From Peptococcaceae bacterium BICA1-7 (GTDB taxonomy: Bacteria; Bacillota; Desulfotomaculia; Desulfotomaculales; Desulfocucumaceae): DNA of 64,000 nt. Below the pieces are notes generated by a model. The model ran no database searches, was not told where the DNA came from, and was given only the letters and a program-made list of their open reading frames with translations. The stretch lies in the NCBI GenBank assembly GCA_000802095.1, contig JUEB01000033.1, forward strand, positions 62,001 to 126,000. The letters run 5' to 3'. A program made the translations under genes and the position numbers. This document shows positions 16,655-55,280 of this stretch, one piece after another; within the stretch, counting starts at the first letter, position 1, and each line of letters opens with the position of its first letter.

Positions 16655-17365
16655 CTACAGCCTGTCCACCGCTGTAAGTATGCCCTTTAGGATGTGGGCC
16701 GGGGTGGGCGGGCACCCCGGGATGTAAACATCCACCGGTGCATGCCTTTCTACACCGCCCCCGGAGGCGTAGGCGTCTCTGAATAATCCCCCTCCGCAGG
16801 CGCAGGCTCCCACTGCCACCACCAGTGTTGGCCCGGGGCAGGCCTCGTAGGTTTTTTGCAGTGCTATCTCCATATTTCTGGTTACCACTCCGGTGATCAG
16901 CAGCATGTCGGCGTGGCGAGGTGAGGCCACAAAGTCCACCCCGTACTGCTGAATATCGTAAACGGGATTGGTCAGAGAGTTTATCTCGAAGTCACAGCCG
17001 TTGCAGGCCCCGGCATCAACATAGCGGATGTGCAGGGACCTCCTGCATATTTTTTTGATCCTCTCCCGAAGGACTGATCCTATTTCTCCGGTGACGGCTG
17101 TCTCCTTTATGATTGGTATCTCTGTTTCGCCTATGGCGTTTGCGGGGCACGCCTGACGGCAGGTGTGGCAGTATATGCACAGCCTTGGGTTCACGGTTTT
17201 TCCGGTAATGGCCCCGGTGGGGCAGGCCTCCTGGCAGTTGGCGCATCCCTTTGGACAGGCAGACCCGTCGATTAAAGGCAGTCCTCTTCCGCCCGTTTCT
17301 CCCCAGTTAAGGGGCCCTTCGGTGACGATTCTTGTTTTAGCCAATCCCTTAAATATCTTAAACAA
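16655..17365 (-). CDS. hyfI: Group 4 [NiFe] hydrogenase small subunit with N-terminal ferredoxin domain
   Basis: 236 residues joining two proteins that are separate in hydrogenase-3/4 (HycF/HyfH and HycG/HyfI). Residues 30-80 hold two [4Fe-4S] motifs, C37-x3-C41-x2-C44-x3-C48 (slightly wide) and C63-x2-C66-x2-C69-x3-C73. From about 112 on is the NuoB-like small subunit, with C121NGC124, a GACACGG cysteine and PGCPP, which bind the proximal cluster. It carries electrons between ferredoxin and the NiFe site at the membrane. The start is TTG with GGGGGTG eight bases upstream, 14 nt behind the large subunit. It is the last gene of the operon; no terminator follows directly, and the small-RNA promoter begins just behind its stop. 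Confidence 0.9.
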   Translation of the reverse strand: MFKIFKGLAKTRIVTEGPLNWGETGGRGLPLIDGSACPKGCANCQEACPTGAITGKTVNPRLCIYCHTCRQACPANAIGETEIPIIKETAVTGEIGSVLRERIKKICRRSLHIRYVDAGACNGCDFEINSLTNPVYDIQQYGVDFVASPRHADMLLITGVVTRNMEIALQKTYEACPGPTLVVAVGACACGGGLFRDAYASGGGVERHAPVDVYIPGCPPTPAHILKGILTAVDRL

Positions 17366-17379
17366 TTAATTTACACCCC

Positions 17380-18957
17380 CTACCTGTCCAGGCAGGCATA
17401 GCATAGTTCAAAGCTTTTGTTGATCAGCGGAAAGTCCGGCACGATGTTGCCCGGCAGGCATATAGGAACCACCGGCCAGTTGCAGTGGGAGGCCGATCTG
17501 ACCATATAGCGGTAGATGGTGTTCCCAGGCCCGCTCATTATCCAGTGGACATTGGCCCCCCGGGCCGACTCGGTACAGCCCACCGAGGTCCGATAGGGGG
17601 GCAGGTCCGGAATTTTCACCGCCAGCATCCCCCGGGAAAGCTTTTGGGCGGCCTGCCTCAGTATGCCGAAGGATTCCCGGCACTCGTCTATTCTCTGCTT
17701 AAGCCTGCGCAGTACGTCCCCCTGCTGTTGGACGGGAACGTTAAACTCCAGGTCCCCGTAAGCAGCGTGAGGTAAATCCCGCCTGAGATCCCTGTCTACC
17801 CCCGAGGCCCTTGCGGCAGGTCCCACCGCGCCCAGGTCCAGGGCTGCTTGAAGAGGTAAAACACCGGTGGTCTCCATCCTGTCCAGCAGCGAGTGGGAAG
17901 ACAGCATTACTTCCGTCAGTTCCCCTAAATCGGACTCCAGGCCGTTTAGCCCAGCTATTATTTCCGGAAGATTTTTGACTCCGGCCCTAACTCCCCCGGG
18001 AATCACCATGCCCCGCAGGTACCGGTGGCCGGCCAGGCGCATATTCATTCTCAGCAGACGCTCCTTCAAAATGGCCCCCCGGCTGACTACATAGGCAAAT
18101 CCTATCCCGGCGGACATGTTGCCAATGTCGCCCACGTGGTTGTAAAGTCTTTCCATTTCCAGCAGTATGGACCTGGTGTAGCTGGCCGCAGCGGGAATCT
18201 CCACCCCGGCAAGGGATTCCACCGCCTGGGCGAAAGAAACGGCATGGGAGACAGAACAGGCCCCACATATCCTTTCGGCCACCAGCACAGCATGGTTAAA
18301 ATCTTTTGACTCAGCAGCCTTTTCCACACCCCGGTGGGTGTAGAAAAGCTGGGCCTGAAGATCGATAACATCCTCCCCGAAGGCTGAAAATCTGAAGTGC
18401 CCCGGCTCAATTATGCCCGCATGGACCGGCCCTACCGGTATGTGGTAGATGCCTTCCCCCTCCACCGGACAGAATTCCATTTCCCCGCTCACCCTGGGCA
18501 CAACGGCCCCGGCGTCAAAGTCTTTTCTCAGTGGATGGACATCCGTGGGCCAGTCAGGGTGCAGCGCAAGCCTGCGGGGGTCCGGGTGACCAACGGGGGT
18601 TATTCCCAGAAGGTCTTTGATCTCCCTTTCCAGCCAGTGAGCCGATGGCACCACCGGTGTCAGGGCAGGGTAGACAGGGCGGTCCGGACTGATTACCGCT
18701 TCTATTTCAATAATCAGTCCGTCTTTGGGATTTGCAAAAACAGGGTATACTGCAAAGCACCCGTCAACCGGCCTGCGGTCCACACCGGCCATGGTCAGCA
18801 GGAAGGCGCCCCGGCCGGTTAGCAGCGAGGCTGCCTCCGGGAGTTTGTCAGCGGGCACTTTAACTCTGGCCGCCTGTTTTCCGGGGAGGTTATCGTCTGC
18901 AAGCACTTCCCAGTCTGAACGGCTTCTCAGTTCCTCTATTAAAGATAGTTCTGCCAC
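17380..18957 (-). CDS. hyfG: Group 4 [NiFe] hydrogenase large subunit (NuoC-NuoD fusion)
   Basis: 525 residues in the HycE/HyfG layout: residues 1-150 match the NuoC-like 30-kDa part and the rest the catalytic NuoD-like part. The four nickel ligands appear to be present: C231 and C234 in ERICGACSVSH and C519/C522 in the C-terminal SFELCYACLDR. The last motif is ELCxxC where active hydrogenases usually have DPCxxC, a notable variation. It should reduce protons or oxidize H2 at the cytoplasmic side, coupled to ion translocation. Its GTG start overlaps the preceding stop as TAGTG, so translation is coupled. No formate dehydrogenase or maturation genes are near. Confidence 0.9.
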   Translation of the reverse strand: MAELSLIEELRSRSDWEVLADDNLPGKQAARVKVPADKLPEAASLLTGRGAFLLTMAGVDRRPVDGCFAVYPVFANPKDGLIIEIEAVISPDRPVYPALTPVVPSAHWLEREIKDLLGITPVGHPDPRRLALHPDWPTDVHPLRKDFDAGAVVPRVSGEMEFCPVEGEGIYHIPVGPVHAGIIEPGHFRFSAFGEDVIDLQAQLFYTHRGVEKAAESKDFNHAVLVAERICGACSVSHAVSFAQAVESLAGVEIPAAASYTRSILLEMERLYNHVGDIGNMSAGIGFAYVVSRGAILKERLLRMNMRLAGHRYLRGMVIPGGVRAGVKNLPEIIAGLNGLESDLGELTEVMLSSHSLLDRMETTGVLPLQAALDLGAVGPAARASGVDRDLRRDLPHAAYGDLEFNVPVQQQGDVLRRLKQRIDECRESFGILRQAAQKLSRGMLAVKIPDLPPYRTSVGCTESARGANVHWIMSGPGNTIYRYMVRSASHCNWPVVPICLPGNIVPDFPLINKSFELCYACLDR

Positions 18958-20423
18958 TAATTTACACCCCCGGCAATCATATAGCTAACCACTTTACTCA
19001 GCATGCTCTGGACCATCCCGGGCATGTAAACTCCCTGCAGTACCAGCAGGCAGATCGGCAGCAGCATGAGCGCGTGGGCGGCGGAAAACCTCTCCCCTCT
19101 GGGAAAGCGGGAGGGCAGGTTGCTGAAATACATTTTCCCGGCGAAATATATCATTCCGGTGAACACCACGGCCACCACCATTAAAAAAATGAACCCCAGT
19201 ACCGGGCCGCTGGCCTCAAACCCTCTGGTGGCCACATTCAGCTCACTGATAAACAGCCCGAAAGGGGGTGACCCCCCTATGGCCAGCAGGCTGGCCATAA
19301 AAATGGCGGAGGTGATCGGAAGAAGCTGGCCTATCCCCTTTATCCTGGGGATTAATTTACTGTGGTAGCTCTGGGTCAGGGTGCCTGCGCTGAGGAACAG
19401 CACCGACTTGCCCAGGGCGTGGTTTACCATATGCAGCAACGCCCCGGTATAGCCCAGGGTGCCGCCCAGGCCCACCCCCAGCACTATAATTCCAATGTGC
19501 TCCACGCTGGAATAGGCCAGGAGTCTTTTTATATCCTTTTGTACCAGTATAAAGGGCAGTGCCCCGACCATTGACATTATTCCGAATAAAACCAGCAACC
19601 TGCCTGAAAAGTCCCCGGTGGCCGAGGCCAGCAGGTGAAAACGTATGATGGCGTAAATGGCGCAGTTTAAGAGTACTCCGGATAAAAGGGCGCTTACCGG
19701 GGAGGGCGCCTGGCTGTGAGCATCCGGAAGCCAGGTGTGCATTGGGAATAGCCCTGCCTTGGTGCCATAGCCCACCAGCACAAATACAAAGGCCAGTTTC
19801 ATAAGATTGGGGTTCAGACTGGACGCCACCGGGTACAGAAACCGCCAGCTAAGACTTATTTCTTCGGCCCCCAGTACCCCTCTGGCGGCGTGAAAGGTCA
19901 GTATTATGCCCAGCATGGCGAAGGCAATGCCCACAGTACATATAATTATATACTTCCAGGCTGCCTCCAGGGAGGTCCTGGTACCGTAAAAGCCAACCAG
20001 CAGGGCGGAGACAATGGTGGTTCCCTCAATGGCCACCCACATCACCCCCAGGTTGTCTGCCAGCACCGCCAGGTACATGGTGCCTACGAAAAGCTGCACC
20101 AGCCCGAAGAACCACCCGGTCTTCCGGCTGTCCATCTCCCCGTTGGCCCGGTCAGCCCGAAGGTAGGTGACTGTGTATAGGCAGCAGATGGTCCCGATGA
20201 CCCCGATGATAAACACCAGCACCGCAGAAAGCTGGTCTACCATCAGGAATCTGCCCGGCCAAAGGGGGCTGCCGGCCTGCAGCGTCTGCAGGGAAATGTA
20301 AAGTGCGGCAGTCCCGGTCAGTATGGATCCGACTACATTAAAACGCTCCCACCAGCGGGTGTTTAGCGGCAGGAAGCAAGCCACCGCCGTGAGGGCTGGA
20401 ATCAAAAGCAGAAGATAAAGCAT
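18957..20423 (-). CDS. hyfF: Hydrogenase-4 membrane subunit, antiporter-like (HyfF/NuoN type)
   Basis: 488 residues, almost wholly hydrophobic with about 14 membrane segments. This is the Mrp/NuoN-type proton-pump family. Seen: VAIEGTTIVSALLVGFYGT, GYGTKAGLFPMHTWLPDAHSQAPSPVSALLSG with the family lysine and proton path residues, and the second Lys/His region DIKRLLAYSSVEHIG. It should translocate H+ or Na+ using energy from the hydrogenase. It follows the HyfE gene by 5 nt and overlaps the large-subunit start by one base. Confidence 0.9.
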   Translation of the reverse strand: MLYLLLLIPALTAVACFLPLNTRWWERFNVVGSILTGTAALYISLQTLQAGSPLWPGRFLMVDQLSAVLVFIIGVIGTICCLYTVTYLRADRANGEMDSRKTGWFFGLVQLFVGTMYLAVLADNLGVMWVAIEGTTIVSALLVGFYGTRTSLEAAWKYIIICTVGIAFAMLGIILTFHAARGVLGAEEISLSWRFLYPVASSLNPNLMKLAFVFVLVGYGTKAGLFPMHTWLPDAHSQAPSPVSALLSGVLLNCAIYAIIRFHLLASATGDFSGRLLVLFGIMSMVGALPFILVQKDIKRLLAYSSVEHIGIIVLGVGLGGTLGYTGALLHMVNHALGKSVLFLSAGTLTQSYHSKLIPRIKGIGQLLPITSAIFMASLLAIGGSPPFGLFISELNVATRGFEASGPVLGFIFLMVVAVVFTGMIYFAGKMYFSNLPSRFPRGERFSAAHALMLLPICLLVLQGVYMPGMVQSMLSKVVSYMIAGGVN

Positions 20424-20428
20424 ATTTA

Positions 20429-21070
20429 TTACCCCTTCAGCCTGCTTAATTCTTTAGTGTCCAGGGTGTCAAAGGTGCCCCTTATTTTGTGGGTCATTAT
20501 CCCCATCACTATAGCCCCCACCAGGAGGTCGAAGAATATACCCAGCTCAATAATAAGCGGCATTCCCCCGGTTACGGCCAGGGCACACAGGAATAAGCCG
20601 TTTTCCATCTCGATGATCCCTATTATCTGATTGAAGGCCGACCGCCTGCTGACCATAAAGAAGCACCCCAGGAGAACAGTAGACAGCGCCACCGGGAAAA
20701 GCATTGTTTGGGAGTGAATCTCTATCAGCAGCACCGGCACTATATAGACGTAGGTCAGCGCCACCAGAAGCACCCCAATCAGAAGGGAAGGTCCCATTCC
20801 GATAGAGAGGGGCACCTCCCGGTATACCACTACCCTTATGGCGGTTCTGTACAGCAGCATGGGCAGGACTATAACCTTTACCGCCAGGGTAAGGCCGCCC
20901 ATAAACATCATGTGCCAGCTGATCTCACTCCCGGCAAATCCAAGGTAAAAGGCTATTCCGCTCAGGGCCGCCGATTGAATCGCCAGCAGGGTTATATTTT
21001 TGACTACTATTCTCCCGGACAGCATTAAGAGCCCCGCCATCAGGAACACAAAGGCCAATACTTCGGTCAT
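20429..21070 (-). CDS. hyfE: Hydrogenase-4 membrane subunit HyfE
   Basis: 213 residues, near the 216 of E. coli HyfE, with about six to seven membrane segments. It is similar in layout to NuoK joined to extra helices, and carries IIGIIEMENGLFLCALAVTG, the conserved Glu region of NuoK/HyfE. It forms part of the proton channel between the antiporter-like subunits. ATG start with TAGGAGG ten bases upstream. Its presence makes this a hydrogenase-4-like rather than a six-subunit Ech complex. Confidence 0.87.
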   Translation of the reverse strand: MTEVLAFVFLMAGLLMLSGRIVVKNITLLAIQSAALSGIAFYLGFAGSEISWHMMFMGGLTLAVKVIVLPMLLYRTAIRVVVYREVPLSIGMGPSLLIGVLLVALTYVYIVPVLLIEIHSQTMLFPVALSTVLLGCFFMVSRRSAFNQIIGIIEMENGLFLCALAVTGGMPLIIELGIFFDLLVGAIVMGIMTHKIRGTFDTLDTKELSRLKG

Positions 21071-21082
21071 TAAAAAGACCTC

Positions 21083-21982
21083 CTACATGATACTGTTAGA
21101 AAGGACTGCCAAAAGGCAAAAGGCAGCCCCGCCGGCCATAAGCTCGGGAAGTCTGAAAAGCCTCATTTTGGCAAGAACGCTTTCTGTTAAGGCCAGCCCC
21201 AGTCCAAGGGCCGTTACCTTAGCTGCTATAAGCCCCAGGGCAGCAGCCACCGGTATGCCCGTGGGCTGAGGCCAGAACAGGTGCACCAGCAGAGCCAGTA
21301 AAACCAACTGCTTGAGCATGGCGGCCCAGTGGAGAAACCCCAGCTGCCTGCCGGCATATTCCAGAAGCATGGCCTCGTGCACCATGGTCAGCTCCAGGTG
21401 AGTATCGGGGTTGTCCACCGGAATTCGCCCTGTTTCGGCCACCGTCACGATCATCAGCCCAATGAAGGACAGAGCTCCGGCCGGGTTCCAACCGGCTCCC
21501 GCCAGTGCCCCCAGGTCAGTGGACCCGGCCGTCAGCACAAGCCCGAAAAGCCCCAGCACCATTACCGGCTCAACCAGGGTGGCAATCATCATTTCCCGGC
21601 TGGCCCCCATTCCTCCGAAGGCGCTGCCCGGTTCCAGACCGGCCAGTCCCAGAAAAAACCTGGCCAGTGCGAACAGATAGGTAAAGGCTATCAGGTCACC
21701 AAAGACAATGCCCCGGTGATCCCAAAGGGGGATTATACTTCCCGCAGCCAGATAGGCCCCCAGGCAGACAAGGGGAGTCAGCAGGGTTATCCAGGAGGTT
21801 TGTACAGACACAACGGGATCCCTGCGGAGAAACTTGACAATGTCAAAATAGGATTGAAGAATTCCCGGCCCTCTCCGGCATTGGGTCAGGGCCTTGGCTT
21901 TTTTAATTACTCCGTTGACCAGTGGGGCCATAAGCAAAAGAAATGCCATCTGGCCCAGCACTGACAAAATATTTACTGTCAT
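21083..21982 (-). CDS. hyfC: Hydrogenase-4 membrane subunit HyfC/HycD (NuoH type)
   Basis: 299 residues from the ATG at 21982. A GTG three codons upstream lies on the ribosome site itself (AGGAGG, eight bases before the ATG), so it is rejected. The NuoH-like fold is clear: CRRGPGILQSYFDIVKFLRRD after the first helix, RFFLGLAGLEPGSAFGGMGASREMM, and ETGRIPVDNPDTHLELTMVHEAMLLEYAG, the conserved loop with acidic residues that contacts the small subunit. It anchors the soluble hydrogenase arm to the membrane. Confidence 0.92.
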   Translation of the reverse strand: MTVNILSVLGQMAFLLLMAPLVNGVIKKAKALTQCRRGPGILQSYFDIVKFLRRDPVVSVQTSWITLLTPLVCLGAYLAAGSIIPLWDHRGIVFGDLIAFTYLFALARFFLGLAGLEPGSAFGGMGASREMMIATLVEPVMVLGLFGLVLTAGSTDLGALAGAGWNPAGALSFIGLMIVTVAETGRIPVDNPDTHLELTMVHEAMLLEYAGRQLGFLHWAAMLKQLVLLALLVHLFWPQPTGIPVAAALGLIAAKVTALGLGLALTESVLAKMRLFRLPELMAGGAAFCLLAVLSNSIM

Positions 21983-21994
21983 CAGTAACACCTC

Positions 21995-23974
21995 CTATCT
22001 GACCCAGACCAGCAGTATTATCAGGGTGACGAATATATAGCCCAGATAAAGGTTGATGTTGCCGCACTGGATGCACCGCCATTTTTTTGACAGGGCTATG
22101 GTGAATTCTCTCAGTGGTTTATAAAGGAAATCTCTGATCACTGATTTTATTCTCTCTTCAAAATGCATCCGGTAATTAAAGTACGGAAGCAGGCTGTAAT
22201 CCGTGCTTACCTCCCGCTTAGGCTGCAGTATAAAACGGTAAACCCTTCTAACCGGCTGGGAGAAGGAGGCAGCTGTATATTCCATGGAGGCATCCGTCAC
22301 AATCCCGCAGCCCCAGGTTTCCGTCCGCCTTGCCCGTCCTCCCGGCAGGTTTGCCAGTCCCGCCAGCGCTGCTATAATGACCGCCAGCAGTAGGGCCAGG
22401 CTTAGGTTAAAGGCTCCTGGGAGAGGAGGCAGATCCGGGCCGGGAACAATTTGTGCCGCCACTCCCAACAGGCTGTTCATGACCACCTGGGGAATCAATC
22501 CCAGGGCCAGGCACAAAACCGCCAGGGGAGCCATGCCAATTCTCATCACCGGGGGCGCCTCTGACGCGCCGGCGGCCTTTTGACTCCTTGGCCGGGCCAG
22601 GAAGGAAACCCCGAAGGCCTTAACAAAGCAGGCGGCGGCCAGCGCCCCGGTTAAGGCAAGGGCAGCGCAGGCCAGCACCCCGGCGGCGCTCCAAAACCCT
22701 GAAACCTTGGCCAAAGACAGTGCCAGCAGCGACTGGTATATCTGGTACTCGCTGGCAAAGCCGTTAAAGGGCGGTATAGCTGATATGGACACCGCTCCCA
22801 CCAGGAAAAGAACAGCGGTCTGGGGCATTTTATGAATAAGGCCCCCAAGCTCTTCGATATCCCTGGTGCGGGTGGCGTAATATACTGACCCGGCCCCAAG
22901 GAAGAGAAGGCTTTTGAAAATGGCGTGGTTTAGCACGTGGAAAAGTCCGGCCGCCACGGCTATGGCCGCGGGCACCGGCATGGACCAGGAATAAAAAATC
23001 ATGCCCGCGCCCAGGCCCATCAGTATTATGCCTATGTTTTCAACGCTGTGGAAGGCCAGCAGGCGCTTGAGGTCGTGCTCCATCAGTGCGTAAAGCACCC
23101 CCACAATCGCTGATACTATCCCCACCGCCAGAACAAGCCCGCCCCACCAGGCCGGACCTGGTCCCAGAAGGTCGATGATCACGCGGATCATCCCGTATAT
23201 TGCGGTTTTCAGCATTACCCCGCTCATCACCGCCGAGACGTTGCTGGGGGCTGCAGGGTGGGCCGAGGGCAGCCACAGGTGCAGAGGCACCACACCCGCC
23301 TTGGTGCCGAAGCCTATCAGGGCGCAGGCGAAGACAAGGCTTTTGGTGGTGGCGGACAGAGATTCCGATCTGGCCGCCAGATCGGCAAACCCCCAGTCAC
23401 CACCGCCGGACAGGATAAAAAAGGCGCTTATGATAAAAACGGTGCCCAGGTGAGTCATTACAATGTAGCCGAAGCCGGCTTTCCTGACCTGCTGGTGGCG
23501 GTACTCGAAGGTCACCAGGAAGTAAGAGGCCAGGGTCATCAGCTCCCAGAAGATGAGAAAGACCACAGTGTTGTTAACAATTACCACTAGGCTCATGGAA
23601 AGTACAAACAGGTTGTAGCAAAAGCTCCACCAGGCCAGGTTTTCCTTTACATACATCTTCATATAGCCAATTGAATATAAGCTTGCCAGTGCGGCAATCA
23701 TTGAAATCGTGGCCAGAAAAAAGCCTGCCAGCCGGTCGATAAGAATGCCCAATTCCACACCGGGCAGTATGTAGCCTAGATTTATTACAAGCGGGTCCGG
23801 ATAAAGCATTCCCCATAGTCCCAGCGCCAGTCCCAGCGCTCCGGCGGCCACTCCCGGGCAGCAGCCCAGCAGCAGGGACATACTGGTGCTTCTCCTGAAC
23901 ATTAGGGGAAGCACAGCCCCGGACAGGTATAGGATCAGGGCTATAAAAAGTAATTTTTCCTGCAAGCCAGCCAT
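21995..23974 (-). CDS. hyfB: Hydrogenase-4 membrane subunit HyfB/HycC (NuoL type)
   Basis: 659 residues, close to the 672 of HyfB. About 14 antiporter-like helices and an extended C-terminus of more than 150 residues. Family marks: WELMTLASYFLVTFEYRH (family Glu), GFGTKAGVVPLHLWLPSAHPAAPSNVSAVMSG, and EHDLKRLLAFHSVENIGII. The tail contains a soluble stretch rich in Arg and aromatics (about 570-640) and a last helix. It is the first gene of the operon hyfB-C-E-F-G-I. The start ATG has GGGGGT six bases upstream. The operon's own promoter is not obvious in the AT-rich region upstream. Confidence 0.9.
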   Translation of the reverse strand: MAGLQEKLLFIALILYLSGAVLPLMFRRSTSMSLLLGCCPGVAAGALGLALGLWGMLYPDPLVINLGYILPGVELGILIDRLAGFFLATISMIAALASLYSIGYMKMYVKENLAWWSFCYNLFVLSMSLVVIVNNTVVFLIFWELMTLASYFLVTFEYRHQQVRKAGFGYIVMTHLGTVFIISAFFILSGGGDWGFADLAARSESLSATTKSLVFACALIGFGTKAGVVPLHLWLPSAHPAAPSNVSAVMSGVMLKTAIYGMIRVIIDLLGPGPAWWGGLVLAVGIVSAIVGVLYALMEHDLKRLLAFHSVENIGIILMGLGAGMIFYSWSMPVPAAIAVAAGLFHVLNHAIFKSLLFLGAGSVYYATRTRDIEELGGLIHKMPQTAVLFLVGAVSISAIPPFNGFASEYQIYQSLLALSLAKVSGFWSAAGVLACAALALTGALAAACFVKAFGVSFLARPRSQKAAGASEAPPVMRIGMAPLAVLCLALGLIPQVVMNSLLGVAAQIVPGPDLPPLPGAFNLSLALLLAVIIAALAGLANLPGGRARRTETWGCGIVTDASMEYTAASFSQPVRRVYRFILQPKREVSTDYSLLPYFNYRMHFEERIKSVIRDFLYKPLREFTIALSKKWRCIQCGNINLYLGYIFVTLIILLVWVR

Positions 23975-46413: not shown

Positions 46414-48234
46414 TTAGGCGGGAGTATTAACCATAATTTCGTTAGAGTAACCGGAATACCCTCCTGTTTTACTGTATGCCCTGACCCTGTAATAATAAAT
46501 AGTGTTTCCGGCAACCTGGAAATCAAAGTAGTAGAAGTTGTATTTATCAACTGAGCCTATTTCATTATATTCTGCTGCCCCGGATTTACGTTCAATTATA
46601 AACTCATCCTTATTGGTATAATTAAAATCCCATTTCAATATCACAAGATCTGATGAAATATAGACGGACTGTAGGTGTTCGGGTGCTCCAGGGGGAATTG
46701 CCGGAGTGGTAACGCCGCATTCATTGGAATAACACGAAGACTCAGTTGAGTTATAGGCCTGAACACGATAGTAATACCTGGTATTTGCTTCAACAGTGTC
46801 ATCACTGTAGGCTGTCATATCCCCGTCAACCTCGGCTATGACCAGGTATCTTTCGGTCTCCGCTGTCCTGCGCTCAATTATATAGCCGTTCGCATTGTAC
46901 GCGTTATTCGTCCACGCCAGGTCAATTTGATTGGCGGTTACGGCAATACAGGCCAGGTTTGCAGGTCCGGCTATAAGATCATGGGTGGTCACACTACACC
47001 GGTTGGAATAGCCTGAAAAACCTTTTGAATTATAGGCGCGAACCCTATACGTATAGCTGGTATTAGGAAGCACGTTTCTGTCCGTATATTCCGTCAGCCC
47101 GGGTGCAGTCAGGAAAGCTAATATTTCAAAATCCTCCACCCCGGTTTTACGCTCCACTACACAGCCTTCCTCATTGATGGCCCTGTCTCTCCAGTTTAGG
47201 CGGATTCCATTCCGGCAAATCACAGAACAGGCGAGTTGCGAGGGAGATACAGGCACATCTACGGGGTCGGCCTGCATTACATCCAGCCTGGTGGCCATGC
47301 CCCCGGGATACTGGCCGGCGTTGCAAAGATGATGGTGGTCCCGGTCGTGGAGATAATATTGTCCCTCCGGGCCTGAGATAAAAAGAAGGTCATAGCTTTC
47401 CCCCGAGGCAATGGTTATGGTATTTTTGAGATAGGTAGCATCAATTGAACCGGTCCCTGCAGCTAATGGCCAGCTGTCAACAGCCACTACCCGGGCAGTT
47501 ATACCTTCCAGGCGGAAGCTATGGTTTTGAGAGCCGGCGTTGAGACACCTTATAAGAATTCTTTTTCCAGGGGCAGCATTTACTTTGGAGCCTAGCGGCT
47601 GGCTAACGAGAATATCAACATCGTCCGGCAGCACTGTAAAAGGATATGATCGCCCGTTGATGAGCCAGTAGTCAGGTTCAAAATCCAACATATTAAAGGA
47701 GCTTCCCGAGTCCACTGCCAGGTTGAAACCGCTGTCCACTTCACTAAGAATTAGTACTTTATCCACATCGTAAAGGGAAGCGGTATTATTCCCATAGGCG
47801 GTATGGTAATCGGGATCAGAAGGATGATCAACTCCTGGAGGATAAATTACCATAGCTCCGTACAATCCCATGGGCACCTGTCTTTCCGGACTGGCGCCGC
47901 TCTCGTATAAGAACACCCCGGGGCGGGTGGCAGTGAAGGTATATGTCACAACTCCTCCGGGAGAGGCATGGGTATTGTACGAAGTGAATACACCGTTTTC
48001 TTTAACCGGAGTAGGAATATAATCCTGACCGGGAAATATGAGGGATACAAAATCACTCAGCTCATTGCGCAGTGTAATTTTTATAACATCTCCAACCCGG
48101 GCAATGATCACGGGGCCTGGAAGTTGCGGGTTTCCGCCGGCTGCAGCTGCAAATCCCCAGAAAGGAACCTCCACCCCGTCGGGAAAGGCTATTATCCCCT
48201 TCTTTGCCCACAAATCCTTGGTAATAACGGCCAT
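46414..48234 (-). CDS. Cupredoxin/multicopper-oxidase-like protein with three fibronectin III domains
   Basis: 606 residues from the ATG at 48234 (AAAGGAG nine bases upstream). Residues 1-320 follow the multicopper-oxidase fold (LPGPVIIARVGDVIKITLRNEL, GVFLYESGASPERQVPMGLYGAMVIYP, YWLINGRSYP), but the ligand motifs are lost: no HxHG, and YESG in place of HxH in the first domain. The C-terminal site reads YYLHDRDHHHLCNAG, rich in His but irregular. Then three FN3 repeats (about 325-425, 428-515, 520-606), each with SQLACS/NLACI starts and YTYRVRAYN-type ends. No signal peptide. Last gene of the four-gene operon. It may be a structural partner of the other two. Confidence 0.8.
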   Translation of the reverse strand: MAVITKDLWAKKGIIAFPDGVEVPFWGFAAAAGGNPQLPGPVIIARVGDVIKITLRNELSDFVSLIFPGQDYIPTPVKENGVFTSYNTHASPGGVVTYTFTATRPGVFLYESGASPERQVPMGLYGAMVIYPPGVDHPSDPDYHTAYGNNTASLYDVDKVLILSEVDSGFNLAVDSGSSFNMLDFEPDYWLINGRSYPFTVLPDDVDILVSQPLGSKVNAAPGKRILIRCLNAGSQNHSFRLEGITARVVAVDSWPLAAGTGSIDATYLKNTITIASGESYDLLFISGPEGQYYLHDRDHHHLCNAGQYPGGMATRLDVMQADPVDVPVSPSQLACSVICRNGIRLNWRDRAINEEGCVVERKTGVEDFEILAFLTAPGLTEYTDRNVLPNTSYTYRVRAYNSKGFSGYSNRCSVTTHDLIAGPANLACIAVTANQIDLAWTNNAYNANGYIIERRTAETERYLVIAEVDGDMTAYSDDTVEANTRYYYRVQAYNSTESSCYSNECGVTTPAIPPGAPEHLQSVYISSDLVILKWDFNYTNKDEFIIERKSGAAEYNEIGSVDKYNFYYFDFQVAGNTIYYYRVRAYSKTGGYSGYSNEIMVNTPA

Positions 48235-48269
48235 GGCCAAATCTCCTTTCTAAAAACACAGGCAGCGTT

Positions 48270-49478
48270 CTACAGCCCGTGAGATTCAACAGGAAGCATA
48301 CCGTGGTGGCGCTCCAGAGTACCGTTGGGATAAACGGCAATCATGGTCATCAATCCTCCGGGAAAAGCCCCCCAGTTGGTTATCTCGGGCTCGGCATGAG
48401 AGTGAAGCATAAAGTGGTATTCTCCAACCTCGTTATAAGAAACCATACCGGATGGAAGCTCCCCTTTGACTCCCAAATAAGGGCTGCCGCTCCACATGGT
48501 CATGCCCGTATGGCCAATTGCCATGTTCCTCAAATTGGGGATTACGGTGGGTATTTGGTTGGTAACCGGTTCAAAACCCAGTCCGGTCCATGTATATATC
48601 TGGTCATAGGTTTGGCCGGCTCCGGTGAGAACTGTAAATCTTTTGTACGAAAGGTCAGTTGTGTTGGAAAGGGTGCGGTTTTGTAATAGCCTGCCGTCCA
48701 TACCCACCAGCCGGGTATGATTACCGTGGGGGTGCAGAGGGTGGTTTTCCACTCCGGCCCCGGCGTAGCGAATAAGTACTTTTTCACCCGGCTCCAACAT
48801 TATCATGGCGCCGTGGGGCTGATTGGGCAAATGATCCACATTGTCGGGAAGCATGGTGTCATTGGCGCATCTTCCGTTCATTGTCCAGTACCTCGGTTTA
48901 TAAACCCTGGTGTCATACGGTTTACCAAGCTCAACAGCCTGATGGAGATCAGGGTCTATCTCCCCGACCACCAGAAGATATTCCCTGTCAAATTCAGTCC
49001 CGGTACCGGTGCCATAGGCAGTCTTATACCCGGTATGATCAGGCATGTAATCCTGGGGCCTGACAATAATAGCTCCATACAGCCCCATGGGCACCTGTTT
49101 GTGAGGATTGGTTCCGCTTTCATAGAGAAAAGTGCCGCTGTTTTCAGCATAAAAAGTATAGGTAATGGTTTCACCGGGCAGACAGTGGTTCGTAAGGGAA
49201 ATAAGGCTGCCGTTTTGATACTGGGGTTGAACCGGATTACCGTTAACTCTAACCTCACTTTGCCCGGGAAAAAGTATAGATACCGGTTCCGGCAGGCTGT
49301 TGGTCAGATTAACTGTAACCATAGTCCTGGCCGGAGGGTCCTGCCGCTTTATTATGATTGTTGGTCCGGGCAGCTGAGCAGAACCCCCCGCTTTATCAGT
49401 GAAGCCCCAGATATATATGCTTTTTCCATCCGGAGTGCTGATGTAACCGTCGACGGCCCACAAGTCTATGGTAGGCAT
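48270..49478 (-). CDS. Multicopper-oxidase-like protein with C-terminal copper motif, Cys replaced by Ser
   Basis: 402 residues, no signal peptide. The first cupredoxin part has lost its ligands (FLYESGTNPHKQVPMG near 117-131). The second part keeps N245HPLHPHGNH254, the type 1/type 2-3 histidine motif, and HFMLH359SH361AEPEITN where catalytic enzymes have HCH; the type 1 copper Cys is therefore Ser360. It could contribute the second-domain half of a trinuclear copper site but not a normal type 1 site. RBS AAGGAGA before the ATG. Third gene of the operon, 31 nt behind the protein with intact first-domain motifs. Confidence 0.83.
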   Translation of the reverse strand: MPTIDLWAVDGYISTPDGKSIYIWGFTDKAGGSAQLPGPTIIIKRQDPPARTMVTVNLTNSLPEPVSILFPGQSEVRVNGNPVQPQYQNGSLISLTNHCLPGETITYTFYAENSGTFLYESGTNPHKQVPMGLYGAIIVRPQDYMPDHTGYKTAYGTGTGTEFDREYLLVVGEIDPDLHQAVELGKPYDTRVYKPRYWTMNGRCANDTMLPDNVDHLPNQPHGAMIMLEPGEKVLIRYAGAGVENHPLHPHGNHTRLVGMDGRLLQNRTLSNTTDLSYKRFTVLTGAGQTYDQIYTWTGLGFEPVTNQIPTVIPNLRNMAIGHTGMTMWSGSPYLGVKGELPSGMVSYNEVGEYHFMLHSHAEPEITNWGAFPGGLMTMIAVYPNGTLERHHGMLPVESHGL

Positions 49479-49509
49479 AACACTATCTCTCCTTCGGGTT
49501 AAATTTGCA

Positions 49510-50562
49510 TTACGCCTGGTTCGGCTCTGTCTGGTGAGGCAAGGAGCCTGGCGCGTATATCTGCACTTCTGTTACCATCCCTCCGGGCTCTACCCCGCCT
49601 GAGTTGTTCTTTATAAGATTACGGTTGTAAAAAGGAAGCGTTAGAGGATACATATCCGGTGCCTCCGGAGCTGTGAAAATGGCGTCGTAAGACTGTCCGG
49701 GAGCTATATAGATAATGTTTTTATTATAAGAAAGGTCCTCACCATTCTGACCCAGAGGGCGCATCCCGTCTATACCGACCACTTTCAATACGGCACCAAG
49801 CAGCTCCATGGCGTGCTGCTGGAAGCCCAGATTTACAAACCGCAGCAGCACCCTCTCTCCGGCATTTGCCTTGATTAAAGCAGGCCATGGCTGGGACTGC
49901 AGCCTGCTGCCTCCCGGGGTGTCGATGGTATCCGGGTAGGCACGGCCGTTAATAAGCCAGTAAGTTGGCCTATATTCGGTCCAGTCAGGCTCCTGCACCG
50001 TTGCCACCAGGTTATGGATGCTGCAGTCCAGCTCGTTTAAAAAAACATAGTATTCACGGTGGTACTCAGTCCCGGTGCCATAGCCATACGCTGTTTTATA
50101 AGCTGGGTCGGAAGAGTCGTAATCGTGCGGATAAACCACCAGCGGCCCAACCATGCCCATTTGAATGTGCTCTACGGGTTCGTGATGGCAGTGGTACATG
50201 TAGGTTCCGGGGTCCAGCGGCTTATAGTAGTATTCAAGATCCCTGCCCACCGGAACGGCCACGGATGCCTCCGGCACTCCGTCATAAAAGGCTATCTGGT
50301 TGGGAAAGCCGTGGTAGTGAATGGTATGAGGGTCATCAAGATCCGGCCGGGTGGGAGTGCCCAGGCTGGTAAGGGTAACTATATATTCGTTCCCTGCCTT
50401 CAAAAGAAGGGGAGGGGCCATCAGTTCCGCCCTGGCCCTGTAATTCACCAGTTCATTCTCCGGTACCCCGGATATATCGCCAAAACCGAAAATGTAATGC
50501 GTTCTTCCGTCGGGGGTGTTGACCCACCCGTCAGTGGCGGAACGGCGTATTCTTGTAATCAT
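49510..50562 (-). CDS. Multicopper-oxidase-like protein with intact first-domain copper sites
   Basis: 350 residues, two cupredoxin domains, no signal peptide. Domain 1 has H82YH84G and Y123HCHHEPVEHIQMGM137, that is HxH for the trinuclear site plus Cys125, His132 and a Met, a possible type 1 site as in two-domain oxidases and nitrite reductases. Domain 2 lacks the matching motifs: only FQQHAMEL remains, and the end (FYNRNLIKNNSGGVEPGGM) has no HCH. So it cannot form a trinuclear centre alone and would need a partner, possibly the product of the next gene. ATG with TAAGGAGG nine bases upstream. Second gene of the operon, 50 nt after the giant protein. Confidence 0.85.
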   Translation of the reverse strand: MITRIRRSATDGWVNTPDGRTHYIFGFGDISGVPENELVNYRARAELMAPPLLLKAGNEYIVTLTSLGTPTRPDLDDPHTIHYHGFPNQIAFYDGVPEASVAVPVGRDLEYYYKPLDPGTYMYHCHHEPVEHIQMGMVGPLVVYPHDYDSSDPAYKTAYGYGTGTEYHREYYVFLNELDCSIHNLVATVQEPDWTEYRPTYWLINGRAYPDTIDTPGGSRLQSQPWPALIKANAGERVLLRFVNLGFQQHAMELLGAVLKVVGIDGMRPLGQNGEDLSYNKNIIYIAPGQSYDAIFTAPEAPDMYPLTLPFYNRNLIKNNSGGVEPGGMVTEVQIYAPGSLPHQTEPNQA

Positions 50563-50612: not shown

Positions 50613-53600
50613 TTATCCCTGATACTGGTCGGCCCCTATATCAATGGTTTGACCCCGGCTATCCCCGTCAAAGTCATCTTCCGGGGCACTGTAGCCGCCG
50701 TAAGACAGGGCGCCCTGGCCTATGACCGGGGAAACACCGGTTAGATGGTAGTCTCCCGTTAGTTCCGGCACATCTACAGCAATAATAATGCTTTTAAAAT
50801 CAGGCTGTGCGGCAAAGATAGCCGCCCTTACACTGGTGTCGTACTCATAGATGAATAACGGATTTACCGTCAAATTATTGCCTCCCCCGGGATATTCCGT
50901 GGTCAGGCTGCAGTAATTGGGGTTCAGTGTGCCCGGGGTGCCGAATACCTCCAGGTCAATTACCCCGCCGTCAGCTAACTGCAGTGTATTCAAATCAAAG
51001 TAATAGGCCCTGTTGTCCCAGAAGATATTGTTAAACAGCACCGGGTTGCTGAAATTGGGGGCGCCCGGCGGAAGGACGTTCTGGAAGGCAGCGCTGTGAA
51101 CTTCACTGGCCAGGCCTGCCCCGTGTGGCAGACGGTCGCTGTCTTCAGCCGTGGCAGTGGATATATTTTTGGCAATTGTATTGTTGTAAATAATCACCTC
51201 AGAGGCGTCGTCAAGGGCAATACCGCCGCCAAGGTCGGTGGACACGTTATTTACAATCATATTGTTATATATCTTTATCTGATAGGTGGTGGGCTGCAGC
51301 AGCCTGATGCCGCCCCCGTCATCATTGGCCAGGTTGCCCTGGACAAGGTTGTTGTAAATACTGACTTTACCCGAACCCGGAGAGAGATCCGCAGGCGGCC
51401 GGGGTAATTCCCCTCCCACCAGTATCCCTGCCCCTTCGTCAAAGGAGGCGTTATAGAGCACACAGTTGTGGTGGATACTTCCGTTATCGCTCAGGCCGAA
51501 GTGAGAAATGCCTCCGCCGTACTCGGCAGAATAGTTGCCGCAAATCTTGTTATAGGCCAGCTCGTAATTATCGGCGCCGTTAAATATTCCTATCCCTCCG
51601 GCCAGGTTGAGCCCGCCGTTGTTCAGAACACGGTTGTGATGGATATAAATGTTCTCATTGCGGCTGCTGCCTGCGTAGGGTTTACCGATGGTAATGCCCC
51701 CGCCGTAGCCTCCCGAGTTGCTTTGTATTACATTGTTGCTTATTTCCAGGTAGCGGCAGAATGCGTTGACATATATTCCACCTGCTCCGTTGCCCCTGGC
51801 GCCGGTAATGGTAAATCCGTCAATTAACGGGCTGTACTGTGGGGAAAAGTCCTGGTCTTTGGCAAGAACGGTAATAACCTGGCCTTCATAGATATTGGGG
51901 GTGTCAACAAAGTCATAATCCAGTGTGCTCAGAAGATTTTGCCATTTTGCAGGGTCCGTAAGGAAAAAACGTCCGTCAATGGTTGCGCCGGTTATGCCCA
52001 CGGGATTTCCTCCGGGGCCATCGGGATTGACGCCTCCAGGGCCTAATCCCTGAAGCCTGATCCTTTTTGCCGGGCCCCCCGCCGACCTGGTGTATAATAT
52101 TATATTTTCATAATAGATACCGGGATGGACCACAATCAAAGTGTCGCCGGCTGCCGCATCAACCGCTTCCTGAATGGTTGTGTAATCCCCGGCGCCATCC
52201 TGCCTTACATTGATTACAGCCGGATTATAGAGGCTTCCCAAAACGTGAAGGGTAATACCGGTGGGGGTGACCCTGCCGCTGTCGTTGGCAACCAGCAGCC
52301 GGGCCGTTCCACCCTGCCCTGACGAGAAAGAGGGCAGCACCTTCAGGGTGATCGAGGTATCACCCCAGGCCAGCACCTGGACATGATTATAGTCACCATT
52401 AAGACTTACTTTTCCTCCACCCTGATTTAAACCAAAGTCAAGCCCGGTAAGAGTAATCTCCTCCTGTTCCGATACCACGGCCTGGTTCACCCTGAACAGC
52501 TGTGGTGTCCCGCGCTGCACATCGCACTGAGGGGGCCGGGCAAACTGTGAGCCTGATGTGGCCACAAAGGCGGTTATGGGGAATACTGCAACATCAGCAT
52601 AAGTGGTCCTGCCCGGCCAGACATCAAAAACAAGCTGTAAAGTTTGATAATTGGGGTTATAGCCAAGGTTTGGCCTGTCCGGATCGCCGGGGTCATTTCC
52701 GATAATCCTGTACATGTAAGGAACTATTCCCGAAGGAGTAGGCACATTGCAGGTGTAGGTTGACGGCAGAAGAACTTCAAAAATACCGTTCTTATCGGTA
52801 TATACCGTAGTAATCAACTTACCTGTATAGTCCCTGACGCCAACCGGGGTATAGGGAATACCTCTTTTCCCTCCGTAATAAATAAGGCTGGGATCAGTCT
52901 CTATATTTACGTCATCCACCAGCAGCCCCAGTATCCTGCCGGGGATGGGAACATCCGTGAAAAGATAAAAGTCCGCCGCCGCGTTTTCACCCTCTCCCAG
53001 GATTACCTCTTTCATATTGCATAGGGGCCGGTACTGTCCGTTGTAAGGGCTGCGGGGGTCCTGAACCAGGTGCAGCTCACCGGCGCAGGGAGGAGCGGGT
53101 ATCCAGGCCCGGCTTTCTGCCGCCTGTTTTCTTTCCGGGCACACCGGCACACCGTTTTCCCGGCGGGCGAGGATGTCGTTAAGCACATAGCGGTCACCCT
53201 GGTCGGTATTCACCGATTCTTCGGCAACCACCCTGTACAGTGGTGTCGGGCTGCCGTCCGGAAGAGGATTGCCGGGATCTTCCGGGGGAACAACCTCCAC
53301 GTAATATTTTCCGGCCGGAAGCCGCTCTGTCAGGTATTCTCCGGTTTCCGGATCGGTTATCGGCCGGTTGCTGTCATCAAGTACCCACCTTTCTTCAAAG
53401 GCGTAGCCACCGTCAAAAACGCCCGGCCTTACCTGACCCTCCAGGCTGGGTTTTTCAATGCACCCGGGGTCCGGAGGGGCGTGGGGAGGCACACAGCCCG
53501 TGGGGTGCTCCCAGGGGTCTGTGGTAACAGTATTAATAAGCGTTAAAGAGCCATCGCTTTCTTTCTGGTAAAGGTTCACCGTTACTCCCGGGATTCCGGG

Positions 53601-55280
53601 CTCAAAGTCTTCTGCTGCGGCATACCGGGGATCAGTCTCATTGCGCATGGTGGCATAACGCACTATACCGGAAATGCCGCCATTTTCCCCGGGATCATAA
53701 GGGCGCTTGCCAAAATCGATATAGTTCGTGCCTCCGGCCCAGGTTATCACGGCGGCTGTCAAAGCCCCTTCAAACACCTCGGGTACGGGGTAACGATTCT
53801 CAGGATTGGCGGAAACAGCGGTGCGGGCCAGACGGGCAAAACCTACCTCCGCCACCGTAAAACGCTCCAGCTCAAATACCTCGTTGAATGTGTAATTGCC
53901 GTCAGGGTTGGTAAGGGTGAAATATTGAACGGTCCCGTCCTTGAAGCGGGTCAATAACTCGACTTCAGGCACTCCCGCTTCGCCGGGGTCATACAGGCCG
54001 TTTTCATTGCTGTCAATGAATACTTTGCCCTTTATCCACCCGTACCAGCGGGGAATACCTATCTGCCCGGGGTAATTGACCGGGTCATCCTCCACCACAA
54101 CGTCCATTGAGCCGTTCTTATCCGGCAGCTGCACCGTCCGGAAAGAAATTATATAGTCAAGGGGCTCATCCCAGAGTGCCATCTGGTAAAGTCCCGGGGG
54201 GACACTATTAATCAAAAACGAACCGTCCGCTTCTCCGCGTCCCAGGTATACCTGCCGGTCGTTGCCGCCTATGTCGGTAAGGGCAACCCAGGGACGCTCC
54301 ACCGGCGGGCCGAAGGAAACAGGTATGCCCGGTGTGTCAAATTCGAATACTGTGCGCACCACGCTCCTGATAGTGCCCCTGACCTCTCCGGGGAGAGGTT
54401 CGGGGAATTGCACAGGCCGGACAAAACCAAACCAGACCACAGGGAAGCGGTAGAGGTACTCACTGCTGTACCCTTCATTTCCCTCTTCCACCCAGGCGTC
54501 AATAACATGGGTGCCTTCAATGGTGGTGGTTTGCACCCAGTCGGTGCCGTCCGGAGGTATAGCCTGCACCTCGTATTTCCCCGGGGGAATATTTTCTACA
54601 ACGGCGTACCCGTTTGCATCGGTGAGTATCTTTATTCCGCCTGTGCCCGGTACCGGGACGGGATTGCCATCTCCATCGTAAATATAAGCGCCGCTGGTGT
54701 CCTTCTGGTACTGGGTGCCCAGCGGGTTTCCGTAGTAATCAACGGTTAATTCCCCCACCGCGTCTCCAATTACAACACGAAAGCCCTCCAGCCCCGGTTC
54801 GGAGGGAAGGTCCGGTTCTCCGTTAACCGGCTGGTGATCATGAAAAACAAGCACCCTTATCTTGCTTAGAGGAAGTGGGTTGGGCAGAAGTTCAACAGTT
54901 ATTTCCGCATCCCCGCCGTCTATGGTAACCCAGCTGCCGCCCAATTTATAGCCGGGAGCTTTAACTGATACCAAGTAGCTGCCATTTGGCACATAGACTG
55001 TCGGACTGGTGGAACTCCCCACAGCTGCAACCGGGCTGTGACTGGCCGGTGGTTTTAGTGAAGGAATCTTGCTTTCATCAACTTCATCCGGAGGAACCCC
55101 CACCTGAGGGTCCCCGACGTTATTTTCGTTGACAATAAACTGAAATTGGTCAATAGGGAGTGGTGCATTGTTGGAACTACCTCTCAAGACTTTTATAGTA
55201 AGTGCCCATTTTTCCGTCACTCTACCGGCGGCGAAAGAGTACTCTCCAATACCAGTTGACATTGATGTGACTTCAGCCAT
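50613..55280 (-). CDS. Giant 1555-residue protein: Ig-like/SdrD-B repeats, IPT/TIG domain and parallel beta-helix
   Basis: No signal peptide, anchor or membrane segment at either end; the ATG has GAGAGGAGG about eight bases upstream, so the start is well supported. Domains: about 130-290 and 300-400 carboxypeptidase-regulatory-like folds (GYAVVENIPPGKYEVQA; GSFLINSVPPGLYQMAL); 417-520 an SdrD-B-like unit (KVFIDSNENGLYDPGEAGVPEVEL, with Ca-binding-type Asp/Asn); 540-700 and 778-900 more such units; 925-1015 an IPT/TIG domain; 1020-1555 a right-handed parallel beta-helix (QDGAGDYTTIQEAVDAA, then repeated NNxI/GGGI turns) ending DIGADQYQG. First gene of the operon with three copper-oxidase-like proteins. 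It looks like a scaffold or adhesive layer protein. Its function is unknown. Confidence 0.85.
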   Translation of the reverse strand: MAEVTSMSTGIGEYSFAAGRVTEKWALTIKVLRGSSNNAPLPIDQFQFIVNENNVGDPQVGVPPDEVDESKIPSLKPPASHSPVAAVGSSTSPTVYVPNGSYLVSVKAPGYKLGGSWVTIDGGDAEITVELLPNPLPLSKIRVLVFHDHQPVNGEPDLPSEPGLEGFRVVIGDAVGELTVDYYGNPLGTQYQKDTSGAYIYDGDGNPVPVPGTGGIKILTDANGYAVVENIPPGKYEVQAIPPDGTDWVQTTTIEGTHVIDAWVEEGNEGYSSEYLYRFPVVWFGFVRPVQFPEPLPGEVRGTIRSVVRTVFEFDTPGIPVSFGPPVERPWVALTDIGGNDRQVYLGRGEADGSFLINSVPPGLYQMALWDEPLDYIISFRTVQLPDKNGSMDVVVEDDPVNYPGQIGIPRWYGWIKGKVFIDSNENGLYDPGEAGVPEVELLTRFKDGTVQYFTLTNPDGNYTFNEVFELERFTVAEVGFARLARTAVSANPENRYPVPEVFEGALTAAVITWAGGTNYIDFGKRPYDPGENGGISGIVRYATMRNETDPRYAAAEDFEPGIPGVTVNLYQKESDGSLTLINTVTTDPWEHPTGCVPPHAPPDPGCIEKPSLEGQVRPGVFDGGYAFEERWVLDDSNRPITDPETGEYLTERLPAGKYYVEVVPPEDPGNPLPDGSPTPLYRVVAEESVNTDQGDRYVLNDILARRENGVPVCPERKQAAESRAWIPAPPCAGELHLVQDPRSPYNGQYRPLCNMKEVILGEGENAAADFYLFTDVPIPGRILGLLVDDVNIETDPSLIYYGGKRGIPYTPVGVRDYTGKLITTVYTDKNGIFEVLLPSTYTCNVPTPSGIVPYMYRIIGNDPGDPDRPNLGYNPNYQTLQLVFDVWPGRTTYADVAVFPITAFVATSGSQFARPPQCDVQRGTPQLFRVNQAVVSEQEEITLTGLDFGLNQGGGKVSLNGDYNHVQVLAWGDTSITLKVLPSFSSGQGGTARLLVANDSGRVTPTGITLHVLGSLYNPAVINVRQDGAGDYTTIQEAVDAAAGDTLIVVHPGIYYENIILYTRSAGGPAKRIRLQGLGPGGVNPDGPGGNPVGITGATIDGRFFLTDPAKWQNLLSTLDYDFVDTPNIYEGQVITVLAKDQDFSPQYSPLIDGFTITGARGNGAGGIYVNAFCRYLEISNNVIQSNSGGYGGGITIGKPYAGSSRNENIYIHHNRVLNNGGLNLAGGIGIFNGADNYELAYNKICGNYSAEYGGGISHFGLSDNGSIHHNCVLYNASFDEGAGILVGGELPRPPADLSPGSGKVSIYNNLVQGNLANDDGGGIRLLQPTTYQIKIYNNMIVNNVSTDLGGGIALDDASEVIIYNNTIAKNISTATAEDSDRLPHGAGLASEVHSAAFQNVLPPGAPNFSNPVLFNNIFWDNRAYYFDLNTLQLADGGVIDLEVFGTPGTLNPNYCSLTTEYPGGGNNLTVNPLFIYEYDTSVRAAIFAAQPDFKSIIIAVDVPELTGDYHLTGVSPVIGQGALSYGGYSAPEDDFDGDSRGQTIDIGADQYQG

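Follow-up and report, generated by a model that had tools for sequence, protein, structure and literature searches.

Can two neighbouring proteins, neither of which carries the full copper ligand set of an oxidase by itself, build one active site between them? The question is raised by a pair of adjacent genes in the window (the whole 64,000-nucleotide stretch of DNA analysed here), for which the original prediction was an obligate hetero-oligomeric multicopper oxidase. A canonical trinuclear copper centre is formed by eight histidines, four per domain (PMC3600357). Two-domain oxidases are trimers in which this centre draws its histidines from the first domain of one monomer and the second domain of its neighbour, and those of type C have their type-1 copper in the N-terminal domain (PMC13151041). 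A trinuclear centre shared between two chains is therefore to be expected, because the two-domain architecture places the centre between protomers (PMC13151041). Here the two chains would be the products of different genes.

Copper ligands divided between neighbouring genes

The two genes, A and B, belong to a run of four on the minus strand, transcribed in the order D, A, B, C (Table 1). The intergenic gaps are 50 bases between D and A and 31 bases between A and B, a purine-rich, ribosome-binding-like stretch precedes both A and B, and in some loci A and B share a frame with a stop codon in between. Gene C is taken to start at the ATG at 48234, with a TTG at 48240 as the alternative.

Table 1. 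Genes of the D-A-B-C run and sequence features of A and B, with positions in the window
Feature	Position	Strand	Description
Gene D	50613..55280	-	1555 aa; first in the run; large protein of surface type; SdrD_B-like and carboxypeptidase-regulatory-like domains, beta-helix
Gene A	49510..50562	-	350 aa; two cupredoxin domains, the second degenerate
Gene B	48270..49478	-	402 aa; two cupredoxin domains, the first without ligands
Gene C	46414..48234	-	606 aa; two ligand-less cupredoxin domains and fibronectin-III repeats
A motif HTIHYHG, residues 79-85	50308..50328	-	H79, putative type-1 ligand; H82 and H84, putative trinuclear ligands; aligned to HTIHWHG of 3g5w
A motif HCHHEPVEHIQMGM, residues 124-137	50152..50193	-	H124 and H126, putative trinuclear ligands; C125, H132 and M137 or M135, putative type-1 ligands
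B motif HPLHPHG, residues 246-252	48723..48743	-	H249 and H251, putative trinuclear ligands; H246, relic of the type-1 position
B motif HSH, residues 359-361	48396..48404	-	H359 and H361, putative trinuclear ligands (within LHSH, 358-361)
B-specific insert, residues 310-347	48438..48551	-	highly conserved among B proteins; no confident model (pLDDT below 50)

A, B and C each belong to the two-domain multicopper-oxidase superfamily. Both halves of all three match Cu-oxidase Pfam families, and the multicopper-oxidase matches exceed their cut-offs with best E values of 2.4e-11 (A) and 1.4e-12 (B). The AF2 model of B (68 rows; pLDDT 87.5, pTM 0.88) finds its best structural matches (VIA-align) in 2zwn, a metagenomic two-domain laccase (Z 30.8, rmsd 2.6, 283 residues), and in 3g5w, the blue copper oxidase of Nitrosomonas europaea (Z 30.3, rmsd 2.7, 286 residues), both of them two-domain enzymes of type C. 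The model of A is poor (one prediction from 14 rows, pLDDT 59.5), and the fact that 2zwn again ranks first in the PDB lends only weak support.

The first domain of A (A.D1) holds a complete type-1 set together with the four domain-1 trinuclear histidines (H82, H84, H124, H126), and the second domain of B (B.D2) holds the four domain-2 trinuclear histidines (H249, H251, H359, H361), with Ser in place of Cys between the last two. The motif HTIHYHG of A and its residues 123-137, YHCHHEPVEHIQMGM, line up residue by residue with HTIHWHG and YHCHVNVNEHVTM in domain 1 of 3g5w. HPLHPHG and LHSH of B align with HAIHTHG and IHDH in domain 2 of the same protein, with weak scores (13.9 and 2.3 bits). M137 is the residue we take to be the type-1 methionine, by the spacing found in nitrite reductase, with M135 as the alternative. 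The likeness to type C thus comprises two cupredoxin domains per chain in A, B and C, a type-1 site in the N-terminal domain (in A only), and the residue-by-residue alignment of HxH/HCH of domain 1 and HxH/HxH of domain 2 (in A and B). However, type-C enzymes carry all ligands on one chain and form homotrimers, whereas here the domain-1 and domain-2 sets lie in two proteins and the third chain is empty. If a two-domain oxidase is defined by a single chain with all eight trinuclear histidines, A (domain-1 set only), B (domain-2 set only) and C (none) do not qualify, and they fall by definition outside the homomeric two-domain oxidases because no chain holds the full set.

The original prediction had assigned the domain-1 motifs (HYHG and YHCH...H...M) to one protein and the C-terminal motifs (HPLHPHG and HSH) to the other, stating that neither could supply the trinuclear ligands alone and that the pair supplied all eight histidines. 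All of this held, and both reading frames are as stated: the first protein is A and the second B, neither A.D2 nor B.D1 has a full set in sequence, and four histidines of A and four of B make up the eight. It had overlooked the third sister (C), gene D upstream of A, and the lack of a full site in A.D2, in B.D1 and in both domains of C.

Copper nitrite reductase (NirK) was considered as an identity for these proteins and rejected, with scores of 29.2 (A), 34.9 (B) and 31.4 bits (C) on the NCBIfam equivalog model TIGR02376, which has a cut-off of 296.3 bits. NirK resembles them in its two-domain fold; the copper of NirK is also interfacial, which is a further likeness. It differs in that A has HCH and the eight histidines are kept in the A-B pair.

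Distribution, conservation and ancestry of the gene run

A, B and C were found together in 28 genomes, and the order D-A-B-C recurs across the bacterial phylum. The class search covered 113 genomes, 16 of them with a match at 1e-20, and the phylum search 398 genomes, 35 of them with a match at 1e-25; the latter comprise 18 with A-B-C, four with partial clusters (G155, G276, G470 and G198) and 13 recovered via a self-sufficient gene, P. Twelve of the 28 come from the class sample (the window's genome included) and 15 more from the phylum sample; the last, G500, was the one new A-B-C genome from class-level searches around G155, G208, G311, G133 and G181. The only test beyond the phylum, a single short-pattern scan of genome contigs, returned four loci, all in near relatives. 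A, B and C lie on the same strand, in the same order and mostly tens of bases apart, except in G176, where A stands at the end of one contig and B at the start of another. Gene order and orthology are thus shown. Named carriers include Desulfoscipio geothermicus, a Desulforudis MAG, a Firmicutes MAG (UBA1874) and one MAG labelled Actinobacteria. The last, 'Actinobacteria bacterium FK_Sedi_B_Bin.80' (G027; L009 / L038), carries the cluster under a public label that looks wrong, because taxonomy puts this MAG in the window's own genus.

The division of the ligands and its conservation are likewise shown. All nine candidate ligand positions of A are invariant in the 27 aligned A proteins whose genomes also hold B (the core alignment omits L100, L049 and L099), and so is the whole of HTIHYHG except for the Tyr between the histidines. 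The four ligand positions of B are intact in 26 of 27 aligned genomes (L100, a misassigned A fragment, and the partial L050 were omitted, and L041 was set apart as a test row); the single exception is L041 in genome G028, where H359 is replaced by N, and H361 is kept in all 27. G500, added after the alignments were made, has the same motifs. Since the ligand positions are near-invariant across aligned A and B, the motifs are more than chance matches. When the corresponding positions are compared, A.D2, B.D1, C.D1 and C.D2 fall short of a full ligand set in every aligned row, and for C as a whole the count is 0 in 34 rows. In the 27 aligned genomes, then, exactly one first domain (of A) and one second domain (of B) out of six keep their ligands, B of G028 excepted, and the type-1 site is found in A alone (27/27) and not in B or C.

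With P as the outgroup, a branch separates each of A, B and C from all other sequences (support 89, 100 and 98, respectively), B and C are sister clades (support 100), and all three stand apart from P; the tree omits L100, L050 and L116, and the fibronectin tails of C were trimmed by script. The groups are more secure than their branching order, because the program issued a warning about long branches that meet between B+C and P. Branch lengths correlate across shared loci (r = 0.82 for A/B, 0.87 for A/C and 0.88 for B/C).

The P family comprises 16 loci, with the P gene of G232 left out: a paralog in the window's own genome (L053:7308-8951, contig C28, 547 aa) and 15 others. In 15 of the 16, one chain carries all eight trinuclear histidines and the type-1 site. 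P shares the superfamily with A, B and C, and differs from them as one gene without their partition of ligands. The sixteenth, a P-type oxidase at L103:4834-6240, has degraded ligands (HTVHILG, YHCF, YVHG).

Fate of the ligands after loss of B

If A and B share a centre, loss of one would be expected to release the other. Two genomes, G004 (L049) and G155 (L099), have lost B and retain A and C as neighbours, 47 and 9 bases apart, respectively. No further copy of B was found in either (completeness is 98% for G155 but only 72% for G004). The A protein of G155 has lost three of the four trinuclear histidines (H82Y, H84E, H126Y) and kept all five type-1 candidates; that of G004 has lost all four (H82D, H84R, H124Y, H126P) as well as H79 and H132. 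Among the 79 positions that are invariant in the 27 A proteins with B, 19 are changed in G155 and 26 in G004, and the trinuclear histidines are over-represented among the changes in both (3/4, P = 0.041; 4/4, P = 0.010); the type-1 positions are not (0/5 and 2/5). Trinuclear loss in A is therefore seen in 2/2 loci where B is absent and A intact as a gene, as opposed to 0/27 with B (Fisher 0.0025). A third locus without B, in G276 (L100), has a frameshifted A whose ligands are all still there, and counting it gives loss in 2/3 (Fisher 0.0069).

It should be noted that these Fisher and hypergeometric values ignore relatedness and that no more than two or three independent losses underlie them. 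The A proteins of G155 and G004 do sit in different parts of the tree. Two cases speak against a strict pairing: in G028 (L041) B has lost one ligand beside an intact A, and in G276 the broken A retains its ligands without B. In G028, where D is absent, B has changed at 15 of 105 conserved positions in all. On balance, co-loss is shown, and we consider the evolutionary test of a shared centre passed, because the two ligand sets persist together across the phylum and the trinuclear histidines of A decayed after the loss of B.

Alternatively, A and B could be degenerate cupredoxins, each binding copper by itself (type-1 in A, mononuclear in B) without any shared centre. In its favour, A of G155 kept its type-1 positions without the trinuclear histidines, which suggests that a type-1-only A is viable. 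However, separate binding does not account for the invariance of the trinuclear histidines in 27/27 A and 26/27 B proteins, nor for their decay in A once B is gone, and we regard it as very unlikely.

Further relics of the cluster, namely a D fragment with C in G470 (L101), the second domain of C alone in G198 (L116) and the broken A with C but no B in G276, indicate that the module has been lost repeatedly.

A putative heterotrimer among copper enzymes

We suggest that A, B and C likely form a heterotrimer with one shared four-copper site (probability about 0.72), in which the trimer itself, its stoichiometry, the copper and the catalysis are inferred. The claim of an obligate hetero-oligomeric oxidase is thus supported by ligand pairing and decay, and extended, as the unit is probably A+B+C rather than A+B. 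In this view, the simplest one, the three would be diverged copies of a two-domain, type-C-like oxidase whose ancestor resembled P. Of the three interfaces of an ancestral homotrimer, A.D1-B.D2 alone would retain a trinuclear centre, the other two having lost it on both sides, and A.D1 alone would retain a type-1 site. With only these kept, a trimer would hold four coppers, as a laccase monomer does, and not twelve. A reducing substrate would donate electrons to the type-1 copper of A (H79, C125, H132, M137 or M135), from where they would travel over the H124-C125-H126 bridge and reach the trinuclear centre (H82, H84, H124 and H126 of A; H249, H251, H359 and H361 of B), where O2 would be reduced to water; C would close the ring. 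As the site would be shared at A.D1-B.D2, A and B would depend on each other for O2 reduction. The role of D and the location of the complex are inferred too, and there is no physical evidence of complex, copper or activity.

The place of C deserves particular caution, since no ligand evidence bears on it: its membership is inferred from synteny, conservation and the three-fold symmetry of the relatives. Full-length C orthologs range from 312 to 629 aa, with a fibronectin-III tail of none to several repeats. One could argue that A and B alone are the oxidase, as an A-B dimer or as mixed A/B trimers, with C separate or merely structural. A and B do hold all eight trinuclear histidines and the type-1 site, none of the 34 rows of C shows a complete set of ligands, and C alone survives beside a D remnant in G470. 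However, C follows B in every locus where the downstream side of B could be read, the distances of B and C track each other (r = 0.88), the solved relatives are trimers, and C remains with A after the loss of B in G004 and G155, which suggests an A-C contact. We therefore find the A+B-only reading unlikely and retain the A-B-C heterotrimer.

Linkage and co-loss also point to D as a partner. The three genomes whose centre is damaged (G028, G004 and G155) all lack D, and 26/26 with an intact one have it (Fisher 2.7e-4, again ignoring relatedness). D is also present in G500 and interrupted in a few genomes; in the fragmentary G005 no D was found, and only C and part of B (HSH intact) could be read. 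We infer that D is a dedicated partner, for which scaffold, substrate or anchor are all possible roles. In the proposed mechanism it would be perhaps scaffold or substrate in a structure built without export signals, possibly the spore surface. The B-specific insert, with many invariant residues (R317, G325, T327, W329, G331-G336, K338), is a possible contact for D or for a substrate.

No signal peptide was detected by hydropathy in A to D (best 14-residue mean 0.44 to 1.0) or in the P protein of L053, and two exported-looking controls from the window reached 2.78 and 2.95. Missing export signals would fit spore-surface proteins, which are built from the mother cell, and this remains possible. 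The link to sporulation is weak, because neither the promoter test nor co-occurrence with SpoIVA gave more than would be obtained for any gene of the phylum. Upstream of D (23 loci), sporulation promoters were no commoner than in shuffles (SigK-like 1/23, shuffle mean 0.85; SigE-like 1/23, mean 0.46; SigG-like 0). Several SigK-like matches from a looser, uncontrolled scan were discarded after the shuffle-controlled one. SpoIVA was counted by hand in 20 of 21 cluster-bearing genomes (the exception being G434) and in 334 of the 398 genomes sampled from the phylum, no clear excess. The carrier lineages are largely anaerobic. An O2-reducing copper enzyme without an export signal in such lineages is unexplained in itself.

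Six cupredoxin domains, one trinuclear centre and the loss of other potential sites are also features of six-domain oxidases such as ceruloplasmin and MnxG-like proteins (PMC3600357). It might thus be asked whether a six-domain oxidase of this kind has been split into A, B and C, as three two-domain chains make six domains with one centre and MnxG works on spores within a multi-protein complex (PMC5622069). However, six-domain oxidases are single chains with the centre at domains 1/6 or 2/3 (PMC3600357) and type-1 copper in even-numbered domains. Because the A-B-C site joins domains 1 and 4 in gene order, the run is not a gene-order split of the known six-domain proteins. Moreover, the loci read contain no A-B or B-C fusion, only separate genes with their own stops, and the best PDB matches are two-domain oxidases rather than ceruloplasmin (MnxG was outside the comparison). 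We consider a split six-domain oxidase very unlikely. The Mnx manganese oxidase of a spore former, MnxE3F3G, likewise assembles several proteins around an oxidase (PMC5622069), but there all oxidase domains reside in MnxG, and its partners MnxE and MnxF are small and have no known homologs.

In the scheme proposed for the origin of six-domain oxidases, triplication of a two-domain unit leads to a hypothetical ancestor that carries three sites of each kind, trinuclear and mononuclear, before sites are lost (PMC3600357). Returning to the A-B-C heterotrimer, we lean, if only slightly, towards a bolder reading: the genes were triplicated, two of the three trinuclear and type-1 sites were lost, and no fusion followed. 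What remains would be a counterpart of ceruloplasmin in separate chains, working with a partner of its own, D, which no genome with a damaged centre retains. A conserved, unfused A-B-C with one surviving site would mean that paralog divergence and site loss can precede fusion, or skip it; it makes such a course testable in the laboratory and may hint at the possible beginnings of large copper enzymes, ceruloplasmin among them. If the heterotrimer is real, oxidase activity could be switched by mixing subunits, and the genomes without B would be natural controls.

The open-access literature searched yielded no two-domain oxidase that is heteromeric and shares a centre between its chains, which is no proof of absence as most subscription papers lie outside it. 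Heteromeric laccase oligomers of unclear role have been described (PMC8517187), and the sections of that paper bearing on them report no split site.

Elsewhere in the window, positions 16655-23974 hold an operon that we named by eye as hydrogenase-4/formate-hydrogenlyase-like, with a ferredoxin, large and small subunits and proton-pump-like membrane subunits.
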